64,000 nucleotides of DNA. Origin: Halanaerobium saccharolyticum. Its GTDB lineage: Bacteria > Bacillota > Halanaerobiia > Halanaerobiales > Halanaerobiaceae. The notes beneath the pieces were generated by a model. That model saw only the letters and a program-made list of their open reading frames with translations. It was not told the origin of the DNA and ran no database searches. Position numbers and translations under genes: made by a program. The stretch lies in NCBI RefSeq assembly GCF_004362045.1, contig NZ_SNWX01000013.1, positions 1-64,000 on the forward strand, written 5' to 3'. Shown here in pieces: positions 23,776-26,016 of this stretch. Each line of letters starts with the position of its first letter. Within the stretch, counting starts at the first letter, position 1.

Positions 23776-26016
23776 ATGAAGGATATAGTAAAGGTTGTGG
23801 TTGATTTACCTTTAAAAACAATAAATAAAGAATTTGATTATCTTTTACCAGAGAGCTTAAAATCAGAGATAGAAGTGGGGCAGCTTGTCAGAGTTCCTTT
23901 TGGCCGCAGAAAATTGTCTGCTTTTGTGACGGGATTTAAGACTAAATCAGATATAAAAAATTCAAAATTAAAGAAAATTGATTCTCTCTTATATAAACAG
24001 AGTTTTTTTGGGGATGAATTATTAAAAGTTTTTTACTGGACAGCCGCTTATTATCATGCCTATCTGGCCCAGGTTATAAAAAAAGCTTTACCACCTGGGA
24101 TTACTGATCAAAAAATTAGTAAAAAAGAGGTGGAATTTCTTAAGTTAAACCCAGAAATTACTAATTATAAAAATGAGCTTAATAAATTAAAAAAAAGAGC
24201 ACCAAAACAATATTTAATTCTAAAATATTTATTAGAAAATAGTGAAGAAAAACACAAATTCAAGACGGTTGTCGATTCTGCAGAAACTTCTCGTCAGACT
24301 GTTTACCGTTTAATAGACAAAGATTTAATAAATATATATACTGATATTAAGGAAAGAATTCCAGAAGTAAGTATTAATTTTAAAAAAGAACATGAATTTA
24401 ATTTTCAGCTCAAGCAGGAAGAAAAAAAACTTTTAGATCAATTCGTAGATAATGTTTCGGAAGACAATATTTCAGCAAATAATTCATATCTTTTGACTAC
24501 AGAAAATAGTCAGAGGAGATATAACTTTATTATCAAACTGCTGGAAAAATTGCTGGCAGAAGAGAAAAATATTATACTTTTAATTCCAGAAATTGAAAAG
24601 GATAAGGTATTTCTGGGACAAGTAAATAATCAGTTTGGGGATGAGATAGCCTTTATCCACAGTCAATTATCCAGAGGTGAACGTTTTGATCAGTGGCAGC
24701 AGATAAAAAAGGGTAAAGTTAAAGTTGCTGTAGGTGCCCGGTCGGCTATTTTTGCTCCTTTTTCTGAGCTTAATGCTGTAATTATTATGGAAGAAAATAA
24801 TGATAGTTATAAGGGTCAGGAACATCCTTTATATCATGCCAGACAGATTGCCGTTAAGCGTTTAAAAAAGAACAATTCTCTTCTGCTTTTAGAATCACCA
24901 TTTCCCTCTCTGGAAAGTCAATACCATGCTTCTGCTGGCGAATATCAGCAGCTCAAATTAAGCTCTGAAAAAAGTAGGCTGCAGACGAAAATTATTGACA
25001 TGAAAAAAGAAGTAGAAAAAGGTAATCTCGGTGATTTAAGCCAGGATTTAAAAGCAGAGATTAAACTTCAACTTAAAAAAAATAATAAAATCATTTTATT
25101 TTTAAACCGGCGTGGTTCTGCAAATTATCTAATCTGTAGAAAATGTGGTCATGTGCTTAAATGTGATAACTGTAATATTTCTTTAAATTATCACAGAGAA
25201 GAGCATCAGCTGCGCTGTCATTACTGTGGTTTAAAAAAAGAAGTGCCTGATCAGTGTCCGGAATGTGGAAGTCGTTTTATTTCCCGGGCCGGGGTTGGAA
25301 CCGAAAAAATTATTGAACAATTAAAGGTTCTATATCAGGACCTTAAAATTGCCAGAGTTGATAGTGATTTAAAGGAAAAGGAAGTAAAAAAGAGATTGAA
25401 TGATTTTAAAAAAGGGAAAATCGATATTTTAGTTGGAACTTCAATTTTGATAAGAAATCAGTTTTATGATCAGCTTAAATTTTTAGCTGTTATTTCTGCA
25501 GATACAGCTTTAAATAGTTCCGATTTTAGAGCTGCAGAAGAAAATTATTCTCTATTGATGGATTTAAAATCTCTGCTTATAAATAAGTCGGAGAGTAAAT
25601 TCTGGCTGCAGAGTTATGATCCTGATCATTACAGCATTCAGTCTGCCCTGGATCCTGATAAATATTCTTTTTATCAGGAGGAAATTAAAATCAGAAGGCA
25701 GAGGAATTACCCACCTTTTTGCAGGCTTCTAAATATCATAATTAGTGCAGAAGATGAGGAAAAGGCAGCAGCTAAAAGTAAAAAATTATCAATTTTTTTG
25801 GATGGTTATAGAGAAAAGTATCTGGAGAAATTAGGGGCATCACCTGCAGTTTTAAGTAAAATTAGAAATAAATATCGCTGGCAGTTGATTTTAAAATTTA
25901 ATTCGATGCGTAATCGCGAATATATTATTCAATTAATAGAAAAAAAGTTTATCGAGAAAAATGATAATGATTCAGTTGAAATTCGTATTGATGTAGATCC
26001 CTATCAAATGTTATAA
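23776..26016 (+). CDS. priA: PriA-family primosomal protein with degenerate helicase motifs
   Basis: Position before def-fmt, the N-terminal DNA-binding domain (VVVDLPLKTINKEFDYLLP) and the zinc region identify PriA, the replication restart helicase. All eight zinc cysteines are present: 454, 457, 463, 466, 481, 484, 494 and 497. The ATPase is degenerate. The Walker A GVTGSGKT region reads LTTENSQRR (240-248). Walker B DEEH reads MEEN (338-341). Motif III GSATPS reads LESPFPS (372-378). The GTQM...KGHDF block reads GTSILIRNQFYD. The GRAGR arginine motif is missing near 597-602. Neighbouring scaffold blocks such as VGARSAIFAPF are kept, and the 746-aa frame is intact, so this is not random decay. 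It probably loads the primosome without unwinding DNA. That function is inference. Confidence 0.9.
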   Translation: MKDIVKVVVDLPLKTINKEFDYLLPESLKSEIEVGQLVRVPFGRRKLSAFVTGFKTKSDIKNSKLKKIDSLLYKQSFFGDELLKVFYWTAAYYHAYLAQVIKKALPPGITDQKISKKEVEFLKLNPEITNYKNELNKLKKRAPKQYLILKYLLENSEEKHKFKTVVDSAETSRQTVYRLIDKDLINIYTDIKERIPEVSINFKKEHEFNFQLKQEEKKLLDQFVDNVSEDNISANNSYLLTTENSQRRYNFIIKLLEKLLAEEKNIILLIPEIEKDKVFLGQVNNQFGDEIAFIHSQLSRGERFDQWQQIKKGKVKVAVGARSAIFAPFSELNAVIIMEENNDSYKGQEHPLYHARQIAVKRLKKNNSLLLLESPFPSLESQYHASAGEYQQLKLSSEKSRLQTKIIDMKKEVEKGNLGDLSQDLKAEIKLQLKKNNKIILFLNRRGSANYLICRKCGHVLKCDNCNISLNYHREEHQLRCHYCGLKKEVPDQCPECGSRFISRAGVGTEKIIEQLKVLYQDLKIARVDSDLKEKEVKKRLNDFKKGKIDILVGTSILIRNQFYDQLKFLAVISADTALNSSDFRAAEENYSLLMDLKSLLINKSESKFWLQSYDPDHYSIQSALDPDKYSFYQEEIKIRRQRNYPPFCRLLNIIISAEDEEKAAAKSKKLSIFLDGYREKYLEKLGASPAVLSKIRNKYRWQLILKFNSMRNREYIIQLIEKKFIEKNDNDSVEIRIDVDPYQML

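Follow-up and report, generated by a model that had tools for sequence, protein, structure and literature searches.

The window, i.e. the whole stretch of DNA that was analysed, covers 64,000 nucleotides of a Halanaerobium saccharolyticum contig (NZ_SNWX01000013.1, positions 1 to 64,000). The open reading frame at 23776..26016 (forward strand, as are all features of the window given below) is priA, which starts with ATG, has no internal stops and encodes a 746-aa primosomal protein N', putatively of the pseudohelicase type; the gene order around it is metK, priA, then def and fmt. The product scores 444 bits against the TIGR00595 PriA profile (cut-off 230), matches the Pfam models of the 3'-DNA-binding domain (3'BD), the CRR zinc ribbon and PriA_C, each above its cut-off, and aligns over nearly its full length with PriAs of solved structure (4nl4, 6dgd and 8fak; phmmer E ~1e-86). 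The frame and the profile matches thus confirm the complete PriA frame before def-fmt described in the original prediction. The protein has the architecture of the PriA family (3'BD, two SF2 lobes, a cysteine-rich region within lobe 2, and the PriA C-terminal domain), and the gene is a single-copy ortholog adjoining def-fmt, as is typical of members of this family. Its closest named relatives are from H. saccharolyticum (87% identity) and H. kushneri (67%). A second intact priA, whose presence the original prediction had proposed to check, was not found with the PriA profile in this 99.9%-complete genome; apart from priA itself the profile matches, as judged by position and frame length, RecG, a protein of Mfd size and one further helicase-like protein. 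The predicted structure (pLDDT 47, from a three-row alignment) was too poor for a fold search, so the integrity of the PriA fold rests on sequence homology and selection.

Using aligned intact PriAs of the same order as the reference for each motif, we found that the motor parts of the protein have been replaced while the DNA-binding parts are kept. Former Walker A (motif I; residues 242-249, 24499..24522) reads TENSQRRY instead of GVTGSGKT, former Walker B (motif II; residues 338-341, 24787..24798) reads MEEN instead of DEEH, and former motif III (residues 373-378, 24892..24909) is degraded from GSATPS to ESPFPS. Motif V (residues 554-565, 25435..25470), GTQM..KGHD.P in the intact proteins, is GTSILIRNQFYD here, with the leading GT alone kept, and former motif VI with its arginine finger (residues 596-603, 25561..25584) has changed from QVAGRTGRG to DLKSLLIN, with one residue deleted. 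The set that marks an active SF2 helicase (Walker A, Walker B, motif III and the motif VI arginines) is therefore absent from this PriA, and since motifs I, II, III and VI and most of motif V are lost, the protein would neither bind nor hydrolyse ATP. The parts that are kept are the 3'BD (residues 6-106, 23791..24093; Pfam PF17764, 1.9e-25), the cysteine-rich region with its eight zinc cysteines (C454-C497, 25135..25266; Pfam and alignment) and the PriA C-terminal domain (residues 647-742, 25714..26001; Pfam PF18074, 2.1e-19). The alignment bears out the original prediction, according to which Walker A, Walker B, motif III and the arginine finger were gone and all eight zinc cysteines remained.

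The same losses are found in 11 full-length genes with open frames (46-100% identical), of which ten come from Halanaerobium genomes (that of the window among them) and one from a sister genus (G013); two of these assemblies are single-contig genomes. By contrast, GVTGSGKT, DEEH and GRTGR are intact in G012, which represents a third genus of the family, and in every other family of the order in the alignment; the intact PriAs of G012 and G014, for example, share the domains and cysteines of the Halanaerobium protein at 39-42% identity and have all helicase motifs. The lineage-wide loss suggested by the original prediction thus holds for a whole clade rather than one strain, but it is not fixed in the order: of the genomes compared, only those of Halanaerobium and of the one sister genus show it. 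The motif-losing PriAs form a clade with SH-aLRT support of 100 in the PriA tree, the same genomes group with support of 99 in an independent RecG tree, and one change of state suffices to account for the loss. In PriA the stem of this clade measures 0.64 changes per column and the next stem 0.45; the corresponding RecG values are 0.16 and 0.12. For intact lineages, by contrast, the two proteins give similar branch lengths; a burst of change went along with the motif loss. The sister genus G013 retains DQEH and FRSAERTFQL while Halanaerobium has lost more, which suggests that motifs I and VI were lost first and that the erosion of motif II and of the stretch ahead of motif VI continued afterwards.

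We also surveyed the phylum with the PriA profile (199 genomes from 162 genera). Among the ~150 matches listed (so that mild losses could be missed), clearly low PriA scores in near-complete genomes were seen only in this genome and G013; the other low scorers (G071 and G119) are contig-end fragments, and the genome with no PriA match (G186) is an assembly of 85% completeness. Among these matches, loss of the PriA motifs is rare in the phylum.

We note some observations on other helicases in these genomes. RecQ is patchy within the family, with no match at E 1e-60 in G010, G006, G011 and G013 as opposed to the other Halanaerobium genomes. G029, an order relative (98% complete) with an intact PriA, stands alone among the 20 genomes in having no full-length match to RecG; the best that it gives is a 1195-aa Mfd-sized frame. 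The branch of the G023 RecG (L099) is very long (1.95), and this protein is without the usual GRVGRG string; it was possibly transferred or is fast-evolving.

The replacements fall in the helicase lobes. 24 residues that are invariant in the intact PriAs are replaced in all 11 motif-losing ones, 10 in lobe 1 and 14 in lobe 2; no invariant residue is replaced throughout in the 3'BD, the linker/WH, the cysteine-rich region or the C-terminal domain. The zinc cysteines (C454, C457, C463, C466, C481, C484, C494 and C497) are invariant across all PriAs compared, with or without the motor motifs, and the GARSA-FAP, SYK...P.Y.AR and LNRRG motifs are kept in the motif-losing proteins. Conservation by region was compared at similar overall divergence (mean identity of 54% and 56% for the two sets of PriAs). 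In the intact PriAs no parts are better conserved than the lobes (66-70% identity), but the lobes reach 51-52% in the motif-losing ones, in which the 3'BD and C-terminal domain (62-63%) are conserved above them; the exception is a short stretch of lobe 2 ahead of the zinc region (65%). This pattern of retention is what would be expected if PriA was kept to bind DNA and load partners and not to act as a motor.

The gene might in principle be a decaying pseudogene or the product of assembly errors, with restart running independently of PriA; the long stem, the faster evolution relative to RecG and the many catalytic residues lost could be taken that way, and the higher substitution rate as compared to RecG indicates that part of the PriA core may be under relaxed constraint. 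We regard such decay or error as extremely improbable, since the frame is intact in all 11 genes, the zinc cysteines and DNA-binding domains are retained, and the losses are common to independent assemblies. Within the genus, dN/dS is 0.13-0.21 for the whole of priA and 0.09-0.16 for lobe 1, as compared to 0.07-0.17 for intact pairs (Nei-Gojobori estimates; the ratios are rough for those pairs in which dS approaches or exceeds 1). PriA is under strong purifying selection in the motif-losing genomes. The occurrence of the same losses in ten other genomes, together with these ratios, rules out a frameshift, a sequencing error or a pseudogene, the outcomes against which the original prediction was to be checked, and with the motifs lost in 11 of 11 genes its view of a coordinated loss of ATP hydrolysis rather than decay holds. 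Catalytic motifs lost across a clade in a protein that is conserved under selection are the mark of a pseudohelicase, and PriA here shows both.

Partners for such a protein are encoded in the genome. An operon (L115 1094-4778; G000 contig C9) encodes a DnaD-like protein (PF07261), an IstB/DnaC-type AAA+ ATPase and a replicative helicase, and the same operon is present in the sister genus (L116 749-4292; there, genes two and three were assigned by visual inspection). The AAA+ loader has 341 aa and an intact Walker A (GPIGSGKS). Its long N-terminal part matches no Pfam model and carries a CxxC...CxC cysteine cluster. The DnaI_N and DciA profiles gave no match in any of 19 Halanaerobiales genomes, with lost or intact PriA motifs, and are uninformative here; in the control genome, Deinobacterium, the DciA profile does give a match. 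In B. subtilis, restart runs via PriA-DnaD-DnaB with DnaI (PMC13220808, PMC10804225), and by analogy a similar handover from PriA to the DnaD-like protein and the AAA+ loader would be the likeliest route in Halanaerobium.

Taken together, we consider it quite probable that the sole PriA of this cell is a functional pseudohelicase, which would bind forks and load the replisome without unwinding. The non-catalytic loader scaffold of the original prediction is thereby supported as the most likely reading by the motif loss, the selection and the retained DNA-binding domains. A single conversion would have taken place, in the ancestor that Halanaerobium shares with the sister genus. Branched DNA would be recognised by the 3'BD, winged helix, zinc region and C-terminal domain, all of which are seen in the sequence, while the two lobes would stay as a folded, DNA-touching core. 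PriA would then recruit the three products of the observed operon (DnaD-like protein, AAA+ loader and replicative helicase), and restart would use forks whose lagging template is already single-stranded, or forks opened by another helicase or nuclease.

That other helicase was suggested to be RecG, with PriA binding the fork and RecG unwinding on its behalf. The recG gene of this genome (40426..42483; an intact SF2 motor by its motifs, included for context) lies ~16 kb from priA, and RecG with all motifs is found in every motif-losing genome tested. However, 8 of the 9 intact-PriA relatives tested have a full RecG as well, and the motif-losing genomes show no gain, duplication or visible change of it, so this part of the original prediction finds no specific support. 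RecG is moreover a fork-reversal enzyme, and to our knowledge it does not expose the lagging template the way PriA does. In E. coli, RecG does govern how PriA acts on D-loops, and the helicase-dead allele priA300 suppresses recG defects (PMC4752480), which speaks for this model; on balance we find it unlikely that RecG unwinds for PriA. RecQ is ruled out as a compensating helicase, being missing from 4 of the 11 motif-losing genomes and found in some intact species, and no compensating helicase was found among those examined (RecG and RecQ). It is about equally unlikely that the remodelled lobes have been re-purposed, with the ATP site turned into a new binding surface, e.g. for the loader, SSB or a signal nucleotide. 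In favour of such a surface, some of the new residues are shared by most of the genus (EENN.SYK.QEHPLY, GTSILIKNQFY and LK-LL-N) and the dN/dS of lobe 1 matches the low average of the gene, but overall conservation of the lobes is down relative to the DNA-binding domains, and former Walker A varies by species (TENSQRRY, SSHHKQRF, KKFANPDF), with no single new site evident. A pseudohelicase that serves for fork binding and loading remains the preferred reading. In a more far-reaching scenario, motor-less PriA would have arisen independently for a second time, with graded losses; the lobes would form a new contact for the DnaD-like/AAA+ loader, and restart in these anaerobes would run without PriA-driven unwinding. 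We put this scenario forward tentatively and consider it unlikely.

The original prediction knew of no description of such a loss in the PriA family, but the PriA of D. radiodurans was shown in 2015 to be a pseudohelicase, with degenerate Walker A and B motifs and neither ATPase nor unwinding activity, which binds ssDNA, forks and DnaB (Lopper et al. 2015, PMC4504706); the same degeneration is noted there for PriAs across Deinococcus-Thermus. The likeness is close: both clades have a full-length PriA with Walker A and B degenerate throughout and the DNA-binding parts kept, and the Walker A Lys that is Arg in D. radiodurans aligns with a position that is also Arg in most Halanaerobium. In Halanaerobium, however, motifs III, V and VI are lost too, with a deletion in motif VI; its PriA is known here from sequence, that of D. 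radiodurans from biochemistry. The loader sets also differ, with a DnaD-like protein and a DnaC/IstB-type ATPase but no DciA found in Halanaerobium, as opposed to the DciA match of Deinobacterium. In the order-level tree the Halanaerobium clade lies amid intact PriAs, so that its loss is apparently separate from the distant one in Deinococcus-Thermus. Actinobacterial PriAs (e.g. Mycobacterium), for which UniProt notes no detectable helicase motifs, are likewise presumed to be without helicase activity but belong to another phylum and differ in sequence; a Coriobacteriaceae PriA, the only one that we compared, has GVTGSGKT, DEEH and GRAGR intact. Primosome assembly is still possible with E. coli PriA that lacks ATPase activity (cited in PMC4504706). 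The K230R protein (priA300), which is ATPase- and helicase-dead, is such a case and leaves the cells viable. K230R is one laboratory point mutation, whereas in Halanaerobium five motifs are lost and the loss is fixed naturally. Among the literature matches listed, judged by title and opening of the abstract, none reported PriA motif loss in Halanaerobium, and all looked incidental.

The PriA of the salt-loving Halanaerobium would thus be a second, apparently independent, natural motor-less PriA after that of Deinococcus. Why bacteria keep the PriA helicase activity, which is dispensable in E. coli, is an open question, and a loss beside intact close relatives, in a genome with a Bacillus-like loader set, makes it testable by comparison. 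Annotations as 'PriA helicase' may mislead on activity, and the finding suggests that the fork-recognising structural role is the indispensable part of PriA.
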